35,148 nt of DNA from Paracoccaceae bacterium (GTDB taxonomy: Bacteria > Pseudomonadota > Alphaproteobacteria > Rhodobacterales > Rhodobacteraceae), in NCBI GenBank assembly GCA_902606585.1, contig CACLGX010000018.1:1-35148 (forward strand). The letters run 5' to 3'. A program made the translations under genes and the position numbers. Below are positions 3,929 to 23,827 of this stretch, piece after piece; within the stretch, counting starts at the first letter, position 1; the number at the start of each line of letters is the position of its first letter. The notes beneath the pieces are model-generated. The model had not been told where the DNA came from. It made no database searches and was given only the letters and a program-made list of their open reading frames with translations.

Positions 3929-5212
3929 ATGCTGAGTGATTTTTATGGAAACAATCTGACAACGACAACTGGCCTTGCAAGAGATAATTATGATGTTGGG
4001 TTAAAAGCCTTTTTGAGTGCAAATTATGGAGCTGAACAGGCCTTTTCACTAGCCGTGGAGGCCGATCCAAACTTTTCTTTAGCCTATGCGGGCTTGGTGA
4101 GGGCGCATATGGCCGCCGGTAATTTAAAGGCTGCAGCTAGCGCTCTAATAACGGCAAAAAAAATGGTAAATGGAGCAACTGAGCGAGAAAAATCACATAT
4201 CTATTGTATTGAACTACTCACTTCAGGAAAAAGCAAAGAAGCGAGAGAGGCAGTTTACAAACATCTATTAGAATGGCCAAGAGATGCATTAGTAGCGCAG
4301 ATAAATACGAGTGTCTTTGGGCTTATTGGCTTTTCCGGCCAAATAGGCCGAGAAAACGACTTACTGGATTTTACAGAAATGCTTCTTCCTCATTACGCAG
4401 AAGATTGGTGGATGATGTCTATGCATGCCATCTCTCTATGTGAAACAGGCCAGACAATAGCTTCGATGGAATTGATGGAGAAATCACTAGATTTAAACCC
4501 ACGAAATGCAAATGCTGCACATTTTTTCGCTCACATATTATATGAAGAAAACGAGGTTGAAGCCGGGCGTGACTACTTGCATGCCTGGATGCCGTCATAT
4601 GACAGAAGATCAATATTACACGGTCACTTGAGTTGGCACGAAGCTTTATGGGCACTTCAAGATGGAGATGAAACTAAAATGTGGGCAACTATTGATTCAT
4701 CAGTTTCGCCTGAAAAAGGAACAAGTTTACCTTTAAACGCGCTAACCGACACCGCTGCTATTTACTATCGAGCCGAACTTGCTGGATATAAAGTTGATAC
4801 AAAGAGATGGTCGAGGCTGAGTGAGTATGCAGTTCAGAACTTTCCCAATATGGGTCAAAGCTTCGCAGATGTGCATGCATCTTTATCTCATGCAATGGCT
4901 GGGAATGATGAGTATTTGCAAAAATATATAGAAGGCAAAAATGGTTTTGCTGGAGATGTTATTCCTTTTATTGCCAAGGCCTGGAAAGCGATTGCAAAGG
5001 GTGAATGGCTGATTGCGGCACAGGAACTAGCTCCTAATATTGATGATTTTGAGCGTTTTGGTGGCAGCAGAGCCCAAAGAGATTTATTAGAGTTTACTTA
5101 TGTCAATGTTCTGCTTCGAGCCGGTGATACCAAGAAGGCAAAAAATGTATTGCTGAGACGAAGGCCTAAATTTTCCCAAACAGCGCCCATTAAATTACTA
5201 GGTAAGATATAG
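3929..5212 (+). CDS. TTC38-like tetratricopeptide repeat protein
   Basis: A 427-residue, wholly helical, soluble-looking protein without signal peptide or membrane segment. Tandem TPR-like helix pairs run through it, for example AFSLAVEADPNFSLAYAGLV near the N-terminus and MELMEKSLDLNPRNANAAHF near residue 180. The tract HFFAHILYEENEVEAGRDYL and the following HGHLSWHEALWALQDGD match the TTC38 (StaR-like) family known from animals and many proteobacteria, whose molecular role is poorly defined. It begins 21 bases after the dehydrogenase gene with only a weak AAGA ribosome site, consistent with co-transcription. A scaffold or substrate-handling role beside the two upstream enzymes is inference only. 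Confidence 0.75.
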   Translation: MLSDFYGNNLTTTTGLARDNYDVGLKAFLSANYGAEQAFSLAVEADPNFSLAYAGLVRAHMAAGNLKAAASALITAKKMVNGATEREKSHIYCIELLTSGKSKEAREAVYKHLLEWPRDALVAQINTSVFGLIGFSGQIGRENDLLDFTEMLLPHYAEDWWMMSMHAISLCETGQTIASMELMEKSLDLNPRNANAAHFFAHILYEENEVEAGRDYLHAWMPSYDRRSILHGHLSWHEALWALQDGDETKMWATIDSSVSPEKGTSLPLNALTDTAAIYYRAELAGYKVDTKRWSRLSEYAVQNFPNMGQSFADVHASLSHAMAGNDEYLQKYIEGKNGFAGDVIPFIAKAWKAIAKGEWLIAAQELAPNIDDFERFGGSRAQRDLLEFTYVNVLLRAGDTKKAKNVLLRRRPKFSQTAPIKLLGKI

Positions 5213-13225: not shown

Positions 13226-13591
13226 TTAGTCTGTTGTGGTTGTAGTTGTGGTTGTAGTGTCATCATCTTGAGTTGCGGCAACAACAACGGCTGCCACGAC
13301 TGCAGCTGCGACTGCAACTGTAGCTGCTGCTACACCTATTGCTCCTGCAGCAACACCAGCTGCAGCACCTGCTGCTGCTGCCCCGGCACCTGCTGCTGCG
13401 CCGGCACTAGCTGCACCAGCACCTGCTGCACCACCTGCTGCACCACCTGCTGCACCACCGGCTGCACCGCTAGTTGCGCCGCCAGCTGCGCCGCCTCCAG
13501 CACCACCACCACCAGCTGCTCCCGCTTGCTGCGCTGCAACCGGAAATGCTGTTAGCGCTATGATCGCCACACTAGCTAGTAATTTTTTCAT
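13226..13591 (-). CDS. Secreted Gly/Ala-rich protein with poly-Thr tail (YjbE/GfcA-like)
   Basis: A 121-residue low-complexity protein. A Sec signal peptide (1-20, ending PVAA before QQ) precedes a Gly/Ala-only region (22-82). A strongly hydrophobic Ala/Val segment (about 83-107) follows, and then an extreme tail of three Asp, nine Thr and a final Asp. This architecture (signal, small-residue region, hydrophobic stretch, poly-Thr end) is that of E. coli YjbE and the Thr-rich GfcA, small envelope proteins encoded beside yjbFGH and gfcBCDE. Here too it follows YjbF- and YjbH-like genes. Homology cannot be proved by eye because of the low complexity. AGGA (13600-13603) lies nine bases before ATG, and a strong terminator follows. 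Function in E. coli is itself obscure. Confidence 0.75.
   Translation of the reverse strand: MKKLLASVAIIALTAFPVAAQQAGAAGGGGAGGGAAGGATSGAAGGAAGGAAGGAAGAGAASAGAAAGAGAAAAGAAAGVAAGAIGVAAATVAVAAAVVAAVVVAATQDDDTTTTTTTTTD
13421..13468 (-). repeat. 12-bp tandem repeat (4 copies) in the Gly/Ala-rich gene
   Basis: ACCTGCTGCACC occurs three times without change at 13421-13456, followed by a fourth copy with one mismatch (13457-13468). On the coding strand each copy encodes four Gly/Ala residues. The unit is a multiple of three, so slippage would change protein length without shifting the frame. Confidence 0.9.
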
Positions 13592-13719: not shown

Positions 13720-14388
13720 TCACCTGTCTAGCCGCTCTACTAACAGATACCCCAAAGCTGGCCCATGGTATTGTTTAGATCTTCTAACAACGTTCTTGTC
13801 ATCAACAAAATATTTATTTTCGAGTATTTCGGTATTGCTAATGCAGGTTTCTCTATATTCTTGAACATCAAAGCGTACGTCAAAAATTACAATGGTTAAT
13901 GGTTTCTTTTTCTTTTTCATACTGCATGAGAATGTCTTAAAGTACGATTGATTGTCGCCTCCAAGATAGGAAATTTGACGAGCATAATTTGACGTGTCTT
14001 TGATATCTAACCACGATGGCATTGATGACGCGCTTCCCATTACGTCACTTTTCATGCCCCTCGTCGCTTTGATTATGCCGTTATCTAGGGTGATGGTTGC
14101 TTCGTCAGCACCCAACCATGTATCCCCTATACCCTCGCCAGGATAAAGTGTTAACGTTCCGTTTTGGCCGTTTTCTAATTCTACAAATATTACGGGTATC
14201 TTTGCATCATCTATTTTTTTTCGGGTAATAACTTTTCTCGTATCCAGCAACATCGTCGATGTGTTGCGAGCAATCAATGTCTCTCTGAGCATCTTGATGG
14301 CTTTAATCTCTCCAGTCTCAAACTCATTGGAGTTGCTGCAGGAAATGAGTGTTGCAAGTGCCACAATAATTACGAAAAGGCATTTCAT
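13720..14388 (-). CDS. yjbF: YjbF/GfcB-family outer-membrane lipoprotein
   Basis: A 222-residue lipoprotein. The signal sequence MKCLFVIIVALATLISC puts the lipidated Cys at 17. The central motif TWLGADEATITLDNGIIKAT followed by RGMKSDVMG matches the GfcB/YjbF family (typically a TWLS-x-DG-x-x-(I/L)-x-x-x-x-G pattern followed by a Thr/Gly segment). The family functions with YjbH and an OPX channel in exopolysaccharide or group 4 capsule secretion. The start is ATG 14388, which overlaps the YjbH stop as ATGA; GGGAG lies nine bases upstream, inside the YjbH coding sequence. A GTG at 14394 is too close to that site. A run of five Lys near residue 160 is unusual. The assignment rests on these motifs plus the adjacent YjbH gene. 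Confidence 0.75.
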   Translation of the reverse strand: MKCLFVIIVALATLISCSNSNEFETGEIKAIKMLRETLIARNTSTMLLDTRKVITRKKIDDAKIPVIFVELENGQNGTLTLYPGEGIGDTWLGADEATITLDNGIIKATRGMKSDVMGSASSMPSWLDIKDTSNYARQISYLGGDNQSYFKTFSCSMKKKKKPLTIVIFDVRFDVQEYRETCISNTEILENKYFVDDKNVVRRSKQYHGPALGYLLVERLDR

Positions 14389-16508
14389 CGCCACAATCTC
14401 CCAAATTCTCTTTGGAATTGTGCATTTTGTGTGTCCTCGATGAATCGATATAGTTTTCTGGCACTAAATAAGTTTGCTCCACCGTCACGTGTAATAGGAC
14501 GCAGTGCCAGTCGTCGTTTTGATCGAGTGGGCGATGAAATAATCCAGTCTATCGGAACACTAACGTAAATGGCTTTGTCAAAAGAGCCCTCACCAAAGGT
14601 GTCAAAGGGAACATCCGTGAATGTGGCGTAGCCACCTACTTCCCACCCGCTACCAAACTTGCGGGAAATTGTTGTTGTCGCGCCCCAATCGCCTGCCAGG
14701 TAGCGGCCGGCGTTGATTTCGACATCAAACATGCCGCCGGCATCGTAATAGAGGCTGAGGTGGCCAACTGTTGTTTCATAGTCGAGTAAATCGAACCGCA
14801 TGTCATAAGCTCTTTTGCGCACTCGGTGGATATCAAGTCCAACTCCAATGGGCCATTCTGCTGGTTTGTAGAGAAGCTCTCCCCCAATCCCTGCGAAGAA
14901 GGGCTCTAAAATGCCTGCCTGAGCTCTACCATAAAGACCTGGTGCTAAGTTTTTAACATAGGAAATCGTGAGGTCTTTTATGTAACCACTTTGCCCTTCA
15001 ATGTCATAAAGCGGCCAATCTGAGTGTACACGTGGTAAAGTAGAATTAGATCGTCGCTTATTATCAATGAGATTGGTTAATACTGATTTGCGTATTGCGC
15101 CTGAAATTTTCAGGCTTGGTGTGATTTGATATCCTGCCTCCGCTTCAACGCCAGTTTCTAAACTGAGCGGTAAATCAGGGTTGAATAGGCGGTGTGTGAT
15201 GTATGGGCCTAGCCCCCACGTTAAACGTTGGTTGTTTTCACCCGCAGGCAGGGCCTCAATGTCAATCGCGAGGATAGAACGAGTCTCTTGGGCTTTTATA
15301 ACGGGATTGAACTGTTCTTCTGTAATTTTCTCTAAGTCAACGCGGTAAGATCCAGTTATTAAATTGTGCGACATAAATGAAATGTTTGCAAATTTGATGT
15401 CGTTTGATGTGAAGCGTTGAATTGTGCTCGAGACGCGACCAACGGCCTGAGACGTTGACCGAAATTTTGTATTAGTGATGATGATATTAGCGCTTATATT
15501 ATCAATTTTTAGCTCCTGGATCTCAAACCTATCTGTCGCCAACACTTTCCTTATCGCATCAATATTATTTTGTTGAAGGGGCATTGTGCTTTCTGCTCGC
15601 CGCCTCATGGGTACGGGCGCAAGCTCCTTGCCACCCAAGATTGGAGGCCGGCTGGGGTTGATGGAGACATGAGCAGTGACAGACACTTGACTTCCGTGGA
15701 GGTATTGTGAGGAAAATTTTACATATTCATTCAATTGATAAGAAGCCCCGAAATTCCAAGGACTATTCACTTCTAAGTATGAGCTCTCTAGCGACATGAG
15801 GTCTGGTGTGTATTCCGACGAGATCGTGATTTTATCAGAAACGTGGTACTGAATTCCATAAAATGCAGAGGCCTTACCCTGAAACCAATTGATTGTGCCA
15901 AGCGTTCCACCTCTTCCTACTGCATTACCATCACGCTGGTCGAACCTAGATGAAAAAACACTCAAAGGATTTGAAAAGGCATCTCTCCCTGCTAAACGAC
16001 CAAAACCCAGACCTCCGGTTAATTCAAAATTTCTGAACGATTTAGTGCCAACAATATATTCAGATGAATACCACCCGGTTCCAATAAAGTCTCTAAGCCC
16101 GAGGGAGATGGCGGGGATGTATGCTCCTTCATCTAAAATGGAAATATGTGCGTCAAAACTTCTGTCGTGGTTAACGCGACCGTAGGCTTCACCCCCACCG
16201 ATGCCGTGACCTGTATAGCGAAACGATACACCAACGCGCGGTAACGCCTGAAACGAAATACCTGATCGCGCCAGAGATTTGTGAAGTTGTTGCGTTACGA
16301 TCAGTTCGCCGTCGGGAAAACTTTTGGCTGTTGGTAGGTCGATAACACCAGGCAGCCCAAAGTTACTAGCGGTGACCAGTTTTGTCTCACCCGCTGAGGC
16401 AAAATAGGGTATCAGTGCAGCTATGAAAGCTGAGGTTAAAGTAGCAAAGATTGTTCTAGTCCAGGATATCTGTTGGAAAATCAATAGGCTCACTTTTTTA
16501 TGCCCCAT
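14385..16508 (-). CDS. yjbH: YjbH/GfcD-family outer-membrane beta-barrel protein
   Basis: A 707-residue protein. A signal peptide (about residues 15-42, TIFATLTSAFIAALIPYFAS) is followed by the family hallmark NFGLPGVIDLPTAKSFPDGE. The rest alternates short aromatic-ended strands and turns, ending in a barrel-like region with AGRYLAGDWGATTTISRKFG and SVPIDW. YjbH and GfcD are predicted outer-membrane barrels needed for exopolysaccharide or group 4 capsule secretion. The ATG at 16508 has no clear ribosome site; a GTG five codons inside, preceded by GGGG, is a possible alternative. It starts the yjbH-yjbF-(yjbE-like) unit and is divergent from a small secreted-protein gene, with the promoter expected in 16509-16681. 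I see no YjbG/GfcC gene between the partners, unlike in E. coli. Confidence 0.9.
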   Translation of the reverse strand: MGHKKVSLLIFQQISWTRTIFATLTSAFIAALIPYFASAGETKLVTASNFGLPGVIDLPTAKSFPDGELIVTQQLHKSLARSGISFQALPRVGVSFRYTGHGIGGGEAYGRVNHDRSFDAHISILDEGAYIPAISLGLRDFIGTGWYSSEYIVGTKSFRNFELTGGLGFGRLAGRDAFSNPLSVFSSRFDQRDGNAVGRGGTLGTINWFQGKASAFYGIQYHVSDKITISSEYTPDLMSLESSYLEVNSPWNFGASYQLNEYVKFSSQYLHGSQVSVTAHVSINPSRPPILGGKELAPVPMRRRAESTMPLQQNNIDAIRKVLATDRFEIQELKIDNISANIIITNTKFRSTSQAVGRVSSTIQRFTSNDIKFANISFMSHNLITGSYRVDLEKITEEQFNPVIKAQETRSILAIDIEALPAGENNQRLTWGLGPYITHRLFNPDLPLSLETGVEAEAGYQITPSLKISGAIRKSVLTNLIDNKRRSNSTLPRVHSDWPLYDIEGQSGYIKDLTISYVKNLAPGLYGRAQAGILEPFFAGIGGELLYKPAEWPIGVGLDIHRVRKRAYDMRFDLLDYETTVGHLSLYYDAGGMFDVEINAGRYLAGDWGATTTISRKFGSGWEVGGYATFTDVPFDTFGEGSFDKAIYVSVPIDWIISSPTRSKRRLALRPITRDGGANLFSARKLYRFIEDTQNAQFQREFGRLWR

Positions 16509-16681: not shown

Positions 16682-16972
16682 ATGAAAGAATTACAAAAAA
16701 AATCATTTAAGAAGTCTGTTGTTGGGATTGTTACGCTCTTAATCGCCCCTCTCGTTTCGGCAGAGGAAACAATTATCCAAAAAGAAAAACTATCCTTTGA
16801 AAGATGTCTAAAGGTAATCGCGACAAGCCAAGACAAACTGTCGATCGCCCCAGAAGTTGAAGATGTATCAGATCAAAGGCGTGTCGCTGTCTTTACTCTC
16901 GTTGACGGCACGCTCACAATTACGTGCGATGGAATGGAAGGCAACGTGACGGTTTCGACGAATACTAATTAA
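16682..16972 (+). CDS. Small secreted protein, unknown function
   Basis: A 96-residue protein with a Sec signal peptide (basic MKELQKKSFKKS, then VVGIVTLLIAPLVSA, predicted cleavage before EE). The mature part of about 69 residues has two Cys (in ERCLKVI and TITCDGMEG) that could form a disulfide in the periplasm. I recognise no family. AAAGGA (16668-16673) eight bases before ATG 16682 decides the start; an ATG at 16655 would put nine residues before the signal. It is divergent from yjbH, and its stop overlaps the stop of the RfaH-like gene within a shared TTAA. The location suggests an envelope role linked to the polysaccharide locus, but this is inference. Confidence 0.6.
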   Translation: MKELQKKSFKKSVVGIVTLLIAPLVSAEETIIQKEKLSFERCLKVIATSQDKLSIAPEVEDVSDQRRVAVFTLVDGTLTITCDGMEGNVTVSTNTN

Positions 16973-17463
16973 GTGATTTTTGAAACGTCATCCAAAGAAA
17001 CTTCCGCTCTTTTCTGCTGCTGATGGATGTCGATCAGGACCCACGCACGCTGATCATCTTTAATTTGGTCTACGGTACAAACGAACTCCGCAAACGGGCC
17101 TCGTTCAATTTTGATACGATCGGCGGTAACAATGTCATCTAACATTTGAATTACGCCATCGTCGTCGCATCTGCTTTGTAGCCCATTGATGATATGAATA
17201 CTTACGGGTCGGTAAACGCCGTCGAGTGTCACTGCCCTGGTCACACCTTTCGTCCCGTTGACGCTCTTCCACGGTATGGGATTAGCTGCAGAACCCATAA
17301 ACAGATACCCCGGAAATAGTGGAACGTTGGCATATAAAAATTTTCTATGCTTTCTTGTGGTTTTAATAATCAGCGGTAGGAAAACGTTAAAGCCTTGCCG
17401 CTTTAAGTGTTCACGCGCTATGCTATGAGCATTTGGTTTCGTTTGAAGAAGATACCAATTCAT
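16969..17463 (-). CDS. NusG/RfaH-family transcription antiterminator
   Basis: A 164-residue specialised NusG paralogue. The N-terminal NGN domain opens with NWYLLQTKPNAHSIAREHLKRQ in the usual 'WY-x-x-x-(T/H)' style and contains PLFPGYLF (about 50-57), the conserved NGN core. A C-terminal KOW domain follows (DRIKIERGPFAEFVCTVDQI). RfaH-type proteins travel with RNA polymerase after loading at an ops element and stop early termination in long polysaccharide operons. Housekeeping NusG is usually 175-180 residues and lies near rplK; this gene is shorter and lies in a polysaccharide locus, which favours the RfaH branch. I prefer ATG 17463; a TTG at 17469 would add two residues. The upstream spacer leads divergently to an operon with an ops-like sequence. 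Confidence 0.85.
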   Translation of the reverse strand: MNWYLLQTKPNAHSIAREHLKRQGFNVFLPLIIKTTRKHRKFLYANVPLFPGYLFMGSAANPIPWKSVNGTKGVTRAVTLDGVYRPVSIHIINGLQSRCDDDGVIQMLDDIVTADRIKIERGPFAEFVCTVDQIKDDQRAWVLIDIHQQQKRAEVSLDDVSKIT

Positions 17464-17694
17464 TGTCAAATAATTCCGCCATTAAGTCCTATGTTCAACT
17501 TTGAGCGTACGACAACAAATGTGCAAAAATAAACATAATATTAGTATTATAAAATAAGATTTGCTTTTGATCAATTACTGAATTAATAGCGCTCAGGATT
17601 GAGCATGATTTTGTGCATTAAAAATTTTTGGACCGGAAACGACGTGGTGAGCAATCCACCTACGGTGCGGTAGCTATTATCTCAACAAATTTAT
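17464..17694 (+). promoter_or_regulatory. Divergent leader region upstream of the EPS operon
   Basis: This spacer lies between the RfaH-like gene and the MarR-type regulator. Seen in it are a perfect five-pair inverted repeat GCTCA-GGAT-TGAGC (17591-17604), a GGTG/CACC stem candidate (17646-17660), and the ops-like core listed separately. The left half (17500-17590) is AT-rich, as expected of promoters, but I cannot fix a -35/-10 pair with confidence. The plus-strand transcript would have an untranslated leader carrying the hairpins before the first ATG. Confidence 0.5.
17667..17674 (+). promoter_or_regulatory. ops-like element (RfaH loading site candidate)
   Basis: GCGGTAGC matches the core of the E. 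coli ops/JUMPstart element (GGCGGTAGCGTG) at eight consecutive positions. It is in the leader of a polysaccharide operon, 20 bases before the first ATG and about 200 bases from a divergent RfaH-like gene. The first gene has no clear Shine-Dalgarno, as is common for RfaH-dependent operons, where RfaH recruits the ribosome. An eight-base match can arise by chance; position and neighbours carry most of the weight. Confidence 0.5.
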
Positions 17695-18072
17695 ATGGCT
17701 AGTCAGAGAGAACAGCAGCAACGGGAGAACCGCTTTAGGGTAATGCGCCTCCTTAATGAGGACCCTTCCATTTCAACGAGACAAATTGCGCAGAAGATTG
17801 GTATTTCTAATGGTGCCGCCTACTACTTTGTCACTGCTCTCGTTGAAAAAGGTTTTGTGAAGCTGAAAAATTTTACGCAGTCCAAAACTAAGTCCAACTA
17901 CATCTACGAACTCACGCCGCGCGGTCTTCGGGTCAAGGCTGCGCTGACTGTTTCCTTTCTTGAACGTAAGAGACATGAGTACGAAGCCTTGAAGGCAGAA
18001 ATTGAATGTCTAGAGAGTGAATTGGTTGTCGCGGATAAGAGCAAGCCTGGCAATAGCAGAGACGCCGTATGA
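17695..18072 (+). CDS. MarR-family EPS-associated transcriptional regulator
   Basis: A 125-residue winged-helix protein. The helix-turn-helix spans about residues 25-50 (SISTRQIAQKIGISNGAAYY), followed by a wing with KLKNFTQSKTKSNYIYELTP and a C-terminal coiled segment (FLERKRHEYEALKAEIECLE) that would dimerise. Sequence and length fit the EPS-associated MarR group found as the first gene of exopolysaccharide operons in many proteobacteria. It probably senses or controls expression of its own operon. The start has no clear Shine-Dalgarno. Its stop overlaps the cpsG start (ATGA at 18069-18072), so the two genes are translationally coupled. Confidence 0.85.
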   Translation: MASQREQQQRENRFRVMRLLNEDPSISTRQIAQKIGISNGAAYYFVTALVEKGFVKLKNFTQSKTKSNYIYELTPRGLRVKAALTVSFLERKRHEYEALKAEIECLESELVVADKSKPGNSRDAV

Positions 18073-19514: not shown

Positions 19515-20651
19515 ATGAAGCAATATTTTGATCAAATAACTGAACCGCTCTTGATGCAGAGCTATGCAACGTTGTTTTTTGTGAGTTTTATTCTCTGCAT
19601 CATCATTATTGTTTCTAGTGGCTATGGCTTTTCCCGCCGGGGCCAAGTTGATGAGACGGCTGTCCAAAGCGCCCACAGTGGCTTTGTTCCAAGGGTTGGT
19701 GGCCTCGCAATATACATAAGCATTCTTGTTTTGATACCCCTCCTTTCTTTTGGCTTTATTCCTCTTTCTGTGGTTTTTGACCTTGATGCGGAGCAACTCA
19801 CGCTTTTAATTTTATCGGCCGCTCCTGTGATTTCCGTCGGACTAGCTGAAGATCTGGGATATGATATGTCGCCTAAGGCTAGATTAATCGCATCCACAAC
19901 CTCTAGCGTGGTTGCGATTCTATTATTTAAAGTCTGGCTTTCCAAACTGGGCATCCCTGGTATCGACACGCTGCTTATGTTTGCGCCTGTCGGTATTCTA
20001 TTTACAATCTTCGCAACGGTCGGCGTGGTCAACGCCTTTAATCTCATTGACGGCCTCAACGGCCTCTCAAGCTACGTCACAGTTTCCGTCGCGGTTTCAC
20101 TATCAATCATCGCTTTCCAAGCTGGAAACGCTCAAATTTCCACTTTTTTGGTTTTAGTGGTTGCCGCTGTATTAGGGTTTATGGTGTTAAATTTTCCCAT
20201 GGGACAAATATTTCTGGGAGACGGCGGTGCCTACGCACTAGGTCACTTGCTCGTGTGGTCGGCTATTATTCTCATCAAAGGAGCAACTGAAGTCAGCGCC
20301 TTTGCCATACTCCTTGTCTTTTTCTGGCCGGTGGCTGATACCGGCTTGGCAATATGGCGACGATGGAAATTAGGAAACCCAACCGACCGACCAGATCGCC
20401 TGCATTTTCATCAGCTTGCGATGCGTTACCTAGAAATTCGGTTTTTTGGTCGTGACAGGAGGGAAATTGCGAACCCCGTGGCCACTCTGACACTTATCCC
20501 CTTGATTTCTGCCCCACAAGTTTTGGGCGTCTTGTTTTGGGATGATTTTAAGGCTTCCTTAGTGAGCGCTGCTGGCATGGGACTACTTTTTATAATGACC
20601 TATTTTGTTGGCATAGCAGTCGCTAAAAGAGGGCGTATTACAAGTGCTTAA
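19515..20651 (+). CDS. WecA/MraY-type undecaprenyl-phosphate sugar-1-phosphate transferase
   Basis: A 378-residue polytopic inner-membrane enzyme that starts glycan assembly by moving a sugar-1-phosphate from a UDP-sugar to undecaprenyl phosphate. Family motifs are all present: VPRVGG (58-63), the Asp-rich EDLGYDMSP (112-120), NAFNLIDGLNG (173-183), FLGDGGAYALG (233-243) and the cytoplasmic H-motif DRLHFHQ (294-300). About ten hydrophobic segments are visible. The sugar (GlcNAc, GalNAc, QuiNAc or FucNAc) cannot be told from the sequence. Being the only initiating transferase in the window, it most likely starts the repeat unit of this locus. The 66-base gap before it and the 101-base gap after it show no clear promoter or terminator. 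Confidence 0.88.
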   Translation: MKQYFDQITEPLLMQSYATLFFVSFILCIIIIVSSGYGFSRRGQVDETAVQSAHSGFVPRVGGLAIYISILVLIPLLSFGFIPLSVVFDLDAEQLTLLILSAAPVISVGLAEDLGYDMSPKARLIASTTSSVVAILLFKVWLSKLGIPGIDTLLMFAPVGILFTIFATVGVVNAFNLIDGLNGLSSYVTVSVAVSLSIIAFQAGNAQISTFLVLVVAAVLGFMVLNFPMGQIFLGDGGAYALGHLLVWSAIILIKGATEVSAFAILLVFFWPVADTGLAIWRRWKLGNPTDRPDRLHFHQLAMRYLEIRFFGRDRREIANPVATLTLIPLISAPQVLGVLFWDDFKASLVSAAGMGLLFIMTYFVGIAVAKRGRITSA

Positions 20652-20752: not shown

Positions 20753-21563
20753 ATGGTTAACAAAGTCAGAAAGGCAGTGTTTCCTGTTGCTGGATTTGGT
20801 GCTTGGTTCCTCCCTGCGACCAAAGCGATGCTAAAAGAGCTATTGCCAACTGTTGATAAGCCTCTGATCCAATACGCTGCGGACGAGGCGATTGCTGCTG
20901 GTATAGATACGCTTATGTTTGTGATCGGCCGAAATATGCATGCGATTGAAGATCACTTTGATGCAAATAACGAGCTAGAATTCATGTTGCGCGCCAAGGG
21001 TAAGGACGCCCAGGCCGATATGGTGCGCAACATTATTCCCGAGGGTGTGGACTGCATCTTTGTGCGTCAGGCCGAACAACTGGGTTTAGGCCATGCCGTG
21101 CTATGTGCCGAAAGTGAGGTTGGCAGTGATCCCTTTGCCGTGTTGCTGGCCGATGATTTAATAAATGACCACGGATCTGGTGTAATTGCAGATCTTGTAA
21201 CTGCTTTGGAAAAACAGGTAAGTTGCAGCTATTAGTAATGGAAGTCGATGGGCCAGATATTTCAAAATACGGAGTTATCGTACAAAATGGTTCAGGTATT
21301 GCGAGTCTTGTTGAAAAACTTGATGCAAATGGTGCACCCTCAAACCTTGCCTCCATTGGACGATATGTACTAAAACCAGATATATTTGACACTTTGCGGG
21401 GCCTGAGCCCAAGATCAGGTGGGGAAATTCAATTGGCTGATGCAATCAACATACATGTGCAGTGGGGCTCGGTCGAAACTGTTCACTTTACGGGCGGCAT
21501 TTTGATTGTGGGTCAGTGTATGGGTTTATGGCGGCTTCTAGTCATCAATATAGGAAGAAATAA
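20753..21563 (+). pseudogene. galU: Decayed galU (UTP-glucose-1-phosphate uridylyltransferase)
   Basis: GalU sequence continues through three reading frames. Frame one (20753-21235) ends in an early stop. One missing A in the five-A run 21210-21214 restores [13 protein letters not shown] in the next frame. A second shift near 21492-21498 is needed to read RHFDCGSVYGFMAASSHQYR and reach the TAA at 21561-21563. The nucleotide-binding signature GxGTR is changed to GFGAW (ACT CGG to GCT TGG would be two transitions), and the following KAxPKEM reads KAMLKEL. The C-terminus is about 20 residues short. Still readable are [19 protein letters not shown] and GEIQLADAINI. Substitutions in the active-site signature argue for real decay and not only sequencing error. 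UDP-glucose for the ugd gene downstream must come from another galU. Confidence 0.85.
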
Positions 21564-21628
21564 TCGAGCTAAAATGTATGTAACGGTTTTAAGGAAACCG
21601 GCCTCCTGGAGCTATCTGGTAAAGTAAC

Positions 21629-22795
21629 ATGAAAATCACTGTCGTAGGTTTAGGATATGTTGGGCTGTCAAACGCGGTACTACTAGCACAGCACAATGAA
21701 GTGATAGGTGTGGACACAAATCAAGATCGGGTGGATGAAGTAAACGCCAAAAGATCTCCGGTTGTAGACGCTGAAATGTCTAAGTATATGGCTGAAAAGG
21801 ATTTAAACCTGTCAGCGAGTACGGATTTGAAATCTTCGGTTGCCAATGCTGACTTTGTAGTGGTCGCGACGCCTACAAATTATGATGAAAAAGCAACTTA
21901 TTTTGATACGTCCTCCGTTGAGGCAATAATCGCACAAGTTATTGTGATTGAGCCAAACGCGTGTGTTGTCGTGAAATCCACAATACCAGTTGGATTTGTG
22001 GATGATATTAAAAGGCGTCTTAAAACTGATAGCGTAATATTTTCTCCAGAATTTTTACGAGAAGGCAAAGCGCTGCATGATAATCTATATCCAAGCCGAA
22101 TCATTATTGGAGAAAAGTCAAATCGCGCAGAAATATTTGCGGGATTACTCGCACAGGGTGCAATGAAACCAGATATTAAATTTTTATTTACTGGGGCCCG
22201 CGAAGCTGAAGCAATAAAATTATTTTCGAATACTTATCTTGCTATGCGTGTTGCTTTTTTTAATGAGTTGGACAGTTATGCTCTCTCTGTCGATATAAAT
22301 AGCCGTGAAATTATTGAAGGTGTTTCGCTCGATCCACGCATAGGTGATTACTACAATAACCCGTCTTTTGGGTACGGTGGTTATTGCTTACCGAAAGACA
22401 CGAAGCAACTCCTCGCAAATTATGCTGTTGTCCCTCAGAATATCATAAGGGCAACCGTCGACGCCAACGCGACCCGTAAGAATTTCTTGGCGGATGCAAT
22501 TATCAAAAAACAGCCCAAGATCGTTGGAGTTTATCGTTTGGTAATGAAGGCAGGGAGTGATAATTTTCGCGAAAGTGCGATACAGGACATAATTAAAATG
22601 ATTAACCAAAAGGGAATAGAAATAATTATATATGAGCCTTCTTTTTCAGGAAAAATTTTCTATTCGTATAGAGTTGAAAAAGATTTAAATAAATTCAGAG
22701 AGAAATCGGATATTATTATTACAAATCGATTTGATCCTGATTTAAAGGACGTTAATCAAAAAGTTTTTACACGTGATGTATTTGGATCAAATTAA
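21629..22795 (+). CDS. ugd: UDP-glucose 6-dehydrogenase
   Basis: A 388-residue cytoplasmic enzyme oxidising UDP-glucose to UDP-glucuronate with two NAD+. The N-terminal Rossmann motif is VVGLGYVGLSNA (5-16). The substrate loop is SPEFLREGKA (139-148), the catalytic Lys is Lys197 in EAIKLFSNTYLAMR, and the catalytic Cys is Cys253 in FGYGGYCLPKDT. Length equals E. coli Ugd (388). The 65-base gap after the decayed galU holds a perfect six-pair hairpin, CGGTTT (21584-21589) with AAACCG (21595-21600). The stop abuts the ATG of the next gene, so its product feeds directly into the 4-epimerase. The gene is visibly more AT-rich than cpsG. Confidence 0.93.
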   Translation: MKITVVGLGYVGLSNAVLLAQHNEVIGVDTNQDRVDEVNAKRSPVVDAEMSKYMAEKDLNLSASTDLKSSVANADFVVVATPTNYDEKATYFDTSSVEAIIAQVIVIEPNACVVVKSTIPVGFVDDIKRRLKTDSVIFSPEFLREGKALHDNLYPSRIIIGEKSNRAEIFAGLLAQGAMKPDIKFLFTGAREAEAIKLFSNTYLAMRVAFFNELDSYALSVDINSREIIEGVSLDPRIGDYYNNPSFGYGGYCLPKDTKQLLANYAVVPQNIIRATVDANATRKNFLADAIIKKQPKIVGVYRLVMKAGSDNFRESAIQDIIKMINQKGIEIIIYEPSFSGKIFYSYRVEKDLNKFREKSDIIITNRFDPDLKDVNQKVFTRDVFGSN

Positions 22796-23827
22796 ATGAT
22801 AAGTTTTTATAAAAAGAAAGTTGCATTGGTAACTGGATCTGCCGGCTTTATTGGGTACCACTTATGCAGATTATTGCTAGAAGAAAAATGGCACGTTATC
22901 GGACTGGATTGTTTATCAAATTATTATGATGTCAATCTGAAAAAGCGTCGTGAAAGTATGCTGCTAGAATATGAAAATTATCGTTCAATCCATAAAGAAA
23001 TTCAAACTCCCAATATTTTACATGATATTTTTGAAGCTGAAAAACCTAATCTGGTGGTTCACCTAGCCGCTCAGGCAGGAGTTCGTTATTCTATAGAAAA
23101 CCCAAGATCATATCTTGAAAGCAATATCGTCGGCACGTTTGAGTTGCTTGAGGCATCGAAACGTTTTCCTCCACAACACTTGCTTATAGCTTCGTCTTCT
23201 TCAGTTTATGGAGCAAATACTTCGATTCCTTATAAAGAGATTGATAAAACTGACAATCAAATATCGTTCTACGCAAGCACTAAAAAGACAACCGAAAATA
23301 TTGCACACTATTACTCTCACCTTTTTGAGTTGCCAATTACTATATTTAGGTTTTTCACAGTTTATGGTCCATGGGGGCGGCCGGATATGGCAATGTTTGG
23401 TTTCACTAAGGCTATTTTATCTGGTGAAAAAATAGATGTATTTAATCATGGAAATATGAAGAGAGATTTTACTTATATAGATGATCTTGTACAGGGAATA
23501 AGGCTTATAGCTGATAAAATTCCATTGTTAGAAAACGAGGCTTGCTATCGTGAGGACAGTAAATCTTCGGTTGCGCCGTTTCGCGTAGTCAACATAGGTA
23601 ATTCTAAGCCAGAAAAACTAGAAAATCTTATAATTGCTTTGGAAGACGCATTGAAAGTAAAAGCTATAAAGAATTTTGTGCCAATGCAGCCTGGTGACGT
23701 ATATGCTACCTGGGCTGATATTAGCCTAATGGAGTCTCTAACTGGTTTTAAACCAAGGACAAACTTAAATGAGGGAGTAAAAAAGTTTGTTGCATGGTAT
23801 CTGAGAGAATATGGCGGAAACAATTAA
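22796..23827 (+). CDS. UDP-glucuronate 4-epimerase (NAD-dependent, extended SDR)
   Basis: A 343-residue extended short-chain dehydrogenase converting UDP-GlcA to UDP-GalA. The NAD motif is TGSAGFIG (13-20). The catalytic Ser/Thr tract is SSSSVYG (133-139), and the Tyr-x-x-x-Lys pair is Tyr159/Lys163 (SFYASTKKTTE). The motifs GLDCLSNYYDVNLKKRR, RFFTVYGPWGRPDMA and GNMKRDFTYIDD are those of the UDP-GlcA 4-epimerase group (CapI/WbnF/LspL type), not GalE. Its ATG follows the ugd stop without a gap, supporting a UDP-Glc to UDP-GlcA to UDP-GalA route. It is the last gene of the plus-strand operon. A second, more diverged member is at 31.0-32.0 kb. Confidence 0.87.
   Translation: MISFYKKKVALVTGSAGFIGYHLCRLLLEEKWHVIGLDCLSNYYDVNLKKRRESMLLEYENYRSIHKEIQTPNILHDIFEAEKPNLVVHLAAQAGVRYSIENPRSYLESNIVGTFELLEASKRFPPQHLLIASSSSVYGANTSIPYKEIDKTDNQISFYASTKKTTENIAHYYSHLFELPITIFRFFTVYGPWGRPDMAMFGFTKAILSGEKIDVFNHGNMKRDFTYIDDLVQGIRLIADKIPLLENEACYREDSKSSVAPFRVVNIGNSKPEKLENLIIALEDALKVKAIKNFVPMQPGDVYATWADISLMESLTGFKPRTNLNEGVKKFVAWYLREYGGNN

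Follow-up and report, generated by a model that had tools for sequence, protein, structure and literature searches.

Does a bacterium far from the Enterobacteria encode, side by side, an RfaH-like protein, the ops element through which it would be recruited and the polysaccharide operon that it would control? The question is raised by the window, by which we mean the whole stretch of 35,148 nucleotides analysed here (Paracoccaceae bacterium, contig CACLGX010000018.1), which belongs to an assembly of 1.8 Mb that is 73% complete. The initial annotation had placed an RfaH/NusG-family gene divergent from a polysaccharide operon with a MarR-type EPS regulator as its first gene. Both parts of this description hold: the RfaH-like gene matches Pfam and NCBIfam models and lies on the strand opposite to the operon, and the regulator at the head of the operon, MarR_EPS, scores 127.8 bits against TIGR04176, above the curated cut-off of 88. 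The features of the locus are as follows.

16969-17463, minus strand: RfaH-like NusG paralogue, 164 aa from the ATG (alternative TTG at 17469); Pfam NusG, TIGR01955, best PDB sequence relative and AF2 model
17493-17506, no strand: palindrome GTTCAACTTTGAGC on the rfaH side, probable MarR_EPS operator (putative binding site)
17591-17604, no strand: palindrome GCTCAGGATTGAGC, 76 nt before ops, probable MarR_EPS operator (putative binding site)
17643-17664, plus strand: RNA hairpin directly before ops; folding and arm swaps
17667-17674, plus strand: ops core GCGGTAGC; motif count and cross-locus conservation
17695-18072, plus strand: MarR_EPS regulator, first gene of the operon; TIGR04176
18069-19448, plus strand: CpsG-like phosphomannomutase, second gene; profile matches
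19515-20651, plus strand: WecA-type glycosyltransferase family 4; profile matches
20753-23827, plus strand: galU-like (two frames), UDP-glucose dehydrogenase-like and epimerase-like genes; open frames, names from translations

The last group of genes is the probable remainder of the MarR_EPS operon. The galU-like gene, named from its translation, appears to be split over two overlapping frames (20753-21235 and 21223-21627) by an assembly error or a frameshift. On the other side of rfaH, the minus strand carries YjbH and YjbF genes of the group 4 capsule type (13720-16508), followed by Wzz- and Wza-like genes, and no GCGGTAGC was found before these YjbH/YjbF-side genes on that strand of the window. 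Between the YjbF-like and Wzz-like genes lies a small Gly/Ala-rich low-complexity frame (13226-13591, minus strand) whose start is signal-like and whose tail is rich in Thr.

The RfaH-like protein matches Pfam NusG with 62.3 bits and the NCBIfam RfaH model TIGR01955 with 106.4 bits, the best score among five models, albeit below the equivalog cut-off of 144.5; the LoaP model gives 57 bits, against 106 for RfaH. Its best sequence relative in the PDB is E. coli RfaH. Foldseek ranked recruited RfaH (8phk) second, behind a NusG model, and aligned the N-terminal domain with 5ond, a structure of RfaH with ops, at 2.3 A across 93 columns. In the window's own incomplete assembly the RfaH-like gene is the single NusG seen; the idea that it is the organism's only NusG was rejected, since two genomes of the same genus (G002 and G014) carry both an RfaH-like gene and a housekeeping NusG.

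The residues of E. coli RfaH that touch ops are listed in PMC5995543, and most are kept among 58 RfaH-like proteins: K10 in 56, R23 in 50, Q24 in 58, N70 in 54 and T72 in 58. Three are altered in most of them, R16 being mostly Ile, H20 being Asn in 57 of 58 and R73 being variable; the window protein has His at H20 and Lys at R73. E48, one of three residues that autoinhibition of E. coli RfaH requires (PMC7593976), is replaced, by Arg or Lys in 40 of 58 proteins and by Val in the window, and I93 is Val or Ile in 54 of 58. The AF2 model, based on an alignment of 58 of the 81 available proteins and run without a positive control, has a mean pLDDT of 82.4 and builds the C-terminal domain from beta strands (pLDDT about 69-76). 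With E48 lost and a beta C-terminal domain predicted, the RfaH-like protein may not be autoinhibited.

The ops core and its position

A copy of GCGGTAGC had been reported 20 bases before a start codon, and it is indeed found at 17667-17674, as the single copy in the window, with 20 nt separating it from the ATG of MarR_EPS. By chance, 0.37 copies are expected in the window, and at least one copy appeared in 27 of 100 shuffles; the bare octamer count has no significance here, and it is the fixed position that counts. The 11-mer GGTGCGGTAGC, starting at 17664, occurs once in the window's assembly (G000), at this locus. The core CGGTAG (17668-17673) corresponds to C3-G8 with the C3:G8 pair, the bases needed for RfaH recruitment in E. 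coli, and the non-template strand of GCGGTAGC is capable of forming the DNA hairpin GC-GGTA-GC. At ops positions 11-12 the window has A and T instead of the pause-inducing T11-G12 of E. coli; a T stands at position 11 in 20 of 44 leaders.

Outside the window, the first relatives supplied seven divergent pairs, three from the same genus and four from two further families, and every one has GTGCGGTAGC just 5' of its MarR gene. Named genomes were also scanned with an alignment of RfaH-like proteins, and the best 80 loci, mostly from Rhodobacteraceae, were taken. MarR_EPS is present in 40 of these 80 RfaH-similar loci according to our own MarR HMM (matches of 100 bits or less discarded); TGCGGTAGC lies no more than 200 nt upstream of it in 36 of the 40, and the other four have TGCGGcAGC, with T6 changed to C, in the same place. 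Among the 40 loci without MarR_EPS, GTGCGGTAGC was seen near rfaH in two. One copy (L108) stands at a contig end, followed by sequence that resembles the start of a MarR gene; the other (L106, Maritimibacter sp. HL-12, 4743-4774; model R1, E 6e-6) lies upstream of and opposite rfaH, at a locus where no MarR_EPS frame was found. Further GCGGTAGC copies occur among the 80 loci, for example in L137, L144, L157 and L164.

In seven loci with the exact T (L153, L158, L165, L166, L174, L175 and L180), rfaH lies about 4 kb from MarR_EPS and the element stays with MarR_EPS; the element therefore marks the operon, not rfaH. This arrangement bears on the suggestion that the RfaH-like protein acts on its neighbouring operon without ops, either because it is loaded as it is being synthesised or because it binds weakly and irrespective of sequence, the element being a secondary pause. 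The predicted beta C-terminal domain and the loss of E48 would suit such a protein, and activity of this kind has been reported for monomorphic homologues (PMC13015549). Yet rfaH is divergent from its target or kilobases away from it, so that loading during its own transcription would misplace the protein, and the element keeps to the target and not to rfaH. We regard ops-independent action as very unlikely and favour recruitment at ops.

Could the octamer be a product of chance? Over the 80 loci, shuffled octamers matched 25.5 loci on average and 59 at most, which makes the 50 loci matched by the real octamer unremarkable; because shuffled octamers match as many loci, position-specific tests were used. 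GTGCGGTAGC was found in 35 of the 80 loci, against 3 for its reversed control. This difference, the conserved position and the adjoining covarying hairpin described below together rule out a chance octamer, to which we assign a negligible probability despite the copy number expected in the window.

A family sample was assembled by MarR_EPS score, irrespective of rfaH, from 30 genera of the window's family; it comprises 30 of 90 matching genomes, the other 60, outside the ops count, having lower-ranked or fused genes, and some of its genomes are also among the loci gathered by RfaH similarity. The element lies directly 5' of MarR_EPS in 26 of the 30 (20 with T and 6 with C), one of the remainder (L279) has CGCGGTAGC and three have none. 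The initial annotation had made its case depend on conservation of the core in related genomes, and the core proves to be conserved, with 36 exact copies and four differing by one change at 40 loci in the first sample and 26 of 30 genera in the second. In other families of the same class, the element is present in L264 and absent from L260 and L047, and a phylum-wide search of MarR_EPS genes in other classes found it upstream of none of 15 (one of which had no upstream sequence).

The adjoining hairpin and its co-occurrence with rfaH

Folding was compared in 45 leaders, all chosen for TGCGG(T/C)AGC, namely those of the window, L032, L045, L046, L049 and 40 named loci; the set omits L042-L044, two of which are contigs of L163 and L181, and L047, which has no element. 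The 30 nt before GCGG(T/C)AGC have a mean folding energy of -10.9 kcal/mol, against -3.0, -3.4 and -3.2 for neighbouring segments, and z falls below -2 in 22 of 45 leaders, against 9, 2 and 1 of 45 for those segments. In 44 of the 45, a gap of 0-3 nt separates the 3' end of the stem from the motif. RNAalifold, run on a MAFFT alignment of the 45 leaders, recovered only the GC-GGTA-GC pairs; it missed the RNA hairpin, whose length varies among leaders, since the MAFFT alignment had few gaps, and an arm-swap test therefore took its place. Swapping the 5' arm between leaders halved the stability, to a mean of -5.4 kcal/mol over 1232 chimeras, and 33 of the 45 leaders were more stable in native form than at least 95% of their swaps; hence the two arms covary. 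Leaders that did not stand out include L045, L102, L103, L115, L116, L152 and L171, and in the nearest relatives, which have a weak hairpin, 19 of 33 (L102) and 6 of 40 (L103) swaps were as stable. The window hairpin (17643-17664) is moderate, with -7.6 kcal/mol, a z of -1.45 and 1 of 33 swaps as stable. A covariance model built from 14 leaders was too sequence-bound, giving 24 matches at E < 0.01 in 96 sources, of which 14 were its training rows, and it found none of the E. coli JUMPstarts. An intrinsic terminator is disfavoured, as no T-run follows the stem.

With the polymerase placed at the U11 pause, about 10-13 nt of RNA (12 nt in the window) separate the end of the stem from the 3' end, and hairpin-stabilised pauses have a similar spacing of about 10-13 nt between stem and 3' end. 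The ops pause of E. coli is located at U11 (PMC5995543, PMC11001881). Stems close to the motif are also seen further afield: 29 more remote loci, in most of which a regulator-NusG pair stands in tandem, hold ten GCGGTAGC sites, and at eight of these sites (L039, L041, L054, L060, L063, L067, L069 and L070) a stem ends 0-3 nt before the site. Judged by eye, the frames downstream in L054, L060, L067, L069 and L070 resemble an epimerase, ABC transporters, a NeuB-like synthase or a glycosyltransferase.

Of 35 genomes that carry an RfaH-like gene, 32 have the element, as do 2 of 17 that lack such a gene (Fisher p 2e-8, phylogeny being ignored). This table excludes the incomplete G660 and G572 as well as the window and the genomes of its genus, and it scores G1008, whose rfaH is fragmentary, as element-positive although its GCGGTAGC follows a C instead of a T. 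Restricted to the family, the association is weak, with 25 of 26 genomes with rfaH versus 2 of 4 without it (p 0.04), and one of these four, G838, shows no NusG at all, which makes the absence of rfaH uncertain. G844 has rfaH and no element. Two genomes of a different class, G485 and G514, possess rfaH but lack the element ahead of MarR; G485 does, however, have a stem of -18.3 kcal/mol with GGCGGTAGCGTG after it on the downstream side of rfaH. Conversely, G024 (L313, core GCGGcAGC) and G951 (L314) have the hairpin-ops leader before MarR_EPS and only a housekeeping NusG, no RfaH-like gene having been found; their leaders are possibly relics left after loss of rfaH.

These two genomes also speak for a different function, in which the hairpin and GCGGTAGC would be a structured RNA or pause signal for another factor, such as NusA, housekeeping NusG, Rho, the ribosome or an RNA-binding protein, and the RfaH-like gene would be a frequent neighbour. 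The hairpin alone could act in this way, and in 6 of the 26 family-sample leaders a C takes the place of the T that, in E. coli, flips into the pocket of RfaH. However, 15 of the 17 MarR_EPS genomes that have no RfaH-like gene also lack the element, the bases that are invariant here are the ones that E. coli RfaH reads, and the RfaH-like protein retains most of the ops-contacting residues. A signal for another factor appears unlikely to us, if clearly the strongest competitor of recruitment of the RfaH-like protein at ops.

Probable operators, translation signal and ops sites per genome

The leaders share a further sequence, the palindrome G(C/T)TC(A/G)-N4-6-(T/C)GA(A/G)C, of which 51 copies (3.78 per kb), spread over 38 of the 45 loci, lie in the 300 nt that precede ops, compared with 34 copies in 407,842 bp (0.08 per kb) elsewhere in those loci. 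Twenty-eight of the 51 sit 74-85 nt before ops, and the window carries two. That the palindrome belongs to ops or rfaH is disfavoured by ten frames (L269-L278) that are about 610 aa long and begin with a MarR_EPS-type domain, all ten of which have the palindrome upstream and none of which has ops. The palindrome most likely belongs to MarR_EPS, which would bind it. In one of these winged-helix fusions, L269, the only one of the ten scanned, the remainder of the protein matches ATP-sulfurylase and APS kinase (Pfam), hinting that MarR_EPS regulation extends to sulfate activation.

The poor ribosome site described by the initial annotation stands in part. No Shine-Dalgarno 4-mer was found before the ATG of MarR_EPS in the window, and across the 45 leaders the median distance from the first ops base to the first in-frame start is 26 nt. 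A special poverty of such signals is, by comparison, faintly suggested by the counts, a Shine-Dalgarno 4-mer being present in 5 of 45 leaders versus 90 of 298 mechanically chosen control frames of uncertain start.

In six genomes, TGCGGTAGC occurs at 66 sites, and six of these are the MarR leaders with the hairpin. Fifty-six of the other 60 lie inside open frames of at least 150 aa, and certain of the coding-sequence sites fold upstream too, to -10.4; the four outside long frames (L219, L220, L227 and L237) have stems of -0.5 to -6.4. One of them, L227 (G237:C1, 1626909-1626917, minus strand), has a weak stem of -6.4 that ends at the motif and a downstream frame that is not polysaccharide-like, and is possibly a second ops site in its genome. 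Overall, the counts suggest one ops site per genome, four of the six genomes being incomplete.

Proposed mechanism and known systems

The analysis establishes the element and its constant position, a hairpin whose arms covary, the presence of the palindromes and the gene association. The RNA hairpin, the probable operators, the likeness to JUMPstart and the sign of a missing autoinhibition go beyond the initial annotation. We think it probable that the locus functions as a self-contained, mostly cis-acting RfaH-ops control module, and the conservation and gene association support the proposal of an RfaH-ops pair encoded beside its own target outside the Enterobacteria. RNA polymerase would start 5' of MarR_EPS, where MarR_EPS would repress at the palindromes, and would transcribe the short hairpin and then GCGGTAGC. 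Judging from the geometry, the hairpin and the ops bases may jointly hold the polymerase just past GCGGTAGC. The non-template strand could then form GC-GGTA-GC, at which the RfaH-like protein encoded nearby would dock, as the conservation of bases and residues suggests. By analogy with E. coli RfaH, the protein would ride with the polymerase, exclude NusG and Rho and recruit the ribosome to a leader that shows no clear Shine-Dalgarno sequence, so that the polysaccharide genes would be read through.

The locus resembles the RfaH-ops system of E. coli in its NusG paralogue, its polysaccharide operon and a GCGGTAGC leader with GC-GGTA-GC potential and no clear Shine-Dalgarno sequence. It differs in that the target is near rfaH, whereas it is unlinked in E. 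coli, that there is apparently one site per genome, that T11-G12 is not conserved, that E48 is replaced and a beta C-terminal domain predicted, and that MarR_EPS and its probable operators are present. The JUMPstart element (RF01707) is listed for gammaproteobacteria, with a conserved stem-loop, in PMC2864571, the source paper of Rfam. The K-12 rfb, wza and waaQ leaders, which score 60, 57 and 55 bits against this model, have stems of -7.9, -2.7 and -6.4 ending 0-2 nt before GCGGTAGC. A short stem, a gap of 0-3 nt and then GCGGTAGC in polysaccharide leaders are thus common to both; the stem sequence here is unrelated and variable, so that the architecture is shared but the sequence outside ops is not. 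RF01707 found nothing in the window leader, even with E up to 10, or in eight related loci at gathering, and Rfam gave no match over the whole window at gathering.

Monomorphic operon-adjacent RfaH homologues that lack some ops-binding residues are described in PMC13015549 with ops-independent activity, and PMC7593976 reports an HTH neighbour for RfaH cluster CL4 and counts RfaH-like genes in Alphaproteobacteria, its section 11 giving no recruitment site for CL4 or Alphaproteobacteria. An adjacent polysaccharide operon, a nearby HTH regulator and a predicted beta C-terminal domain are points of likeness with these groups, and a conserved predicted recruitment site sets the present locus apart from the homologues described in PMC13015549. 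LoaP is likewise a NusG paralogue with a hairpin in its target leader, but it binds a UNCG-type hairpin (PMC12691694), whereas here the hairpin sequence varies and GCGG(T/C)AGC is constant. Among the literature matches listed (open-access titles and abstract openings), no description of ops or JUMPstart in Alphaproteobacteria was found, and the locus appears to be a variant of the RfaH-ops/JUMPstart system that is, as far as the matched literature shows, new for Alphaproteobacteria and would function in a similar way.

Because a hairpin of different sequence stands at an equal distance from ops in another class, the comparison suggests that the JUMPstart stem-loop may be part of the loading signal. 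More tentatively, and with the balance slightly against it, the site at which RfaH naturally loads could, in both alpha- and gammaproteobacteria, be a composite of a nascent-RNA hairpin with pause-like spacing and the ops DNA hairpin, which in Alphaproteobacteria would recruit a constitutively folded, non-autoinhibited RfaH near its only target. If this is true, site-specific recruitment would occur without a fold switch, contrary to a joint origin of ops reading and autoinhibition; the two would be separated, and the order of both steps matters for models of RfaH evolution. The recruitment of paralogues encoded inside their own target operons is called unknown in the introduction of PMC7593976. 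Here, a recruitment site is predicted near the gene of such a paralogue in many genera, and MarR_EPS genomes with and without rfaH offer a built-in comparison. The predicted layout would amount to a two-level switch for polysaccharide operons, with a repressor acting at initiation and RfaH at elongation, and RfaH-ops control, studied mainly in gut bacteria, appears to exist in a self-contained form in marine relatives of Rhodobacter.
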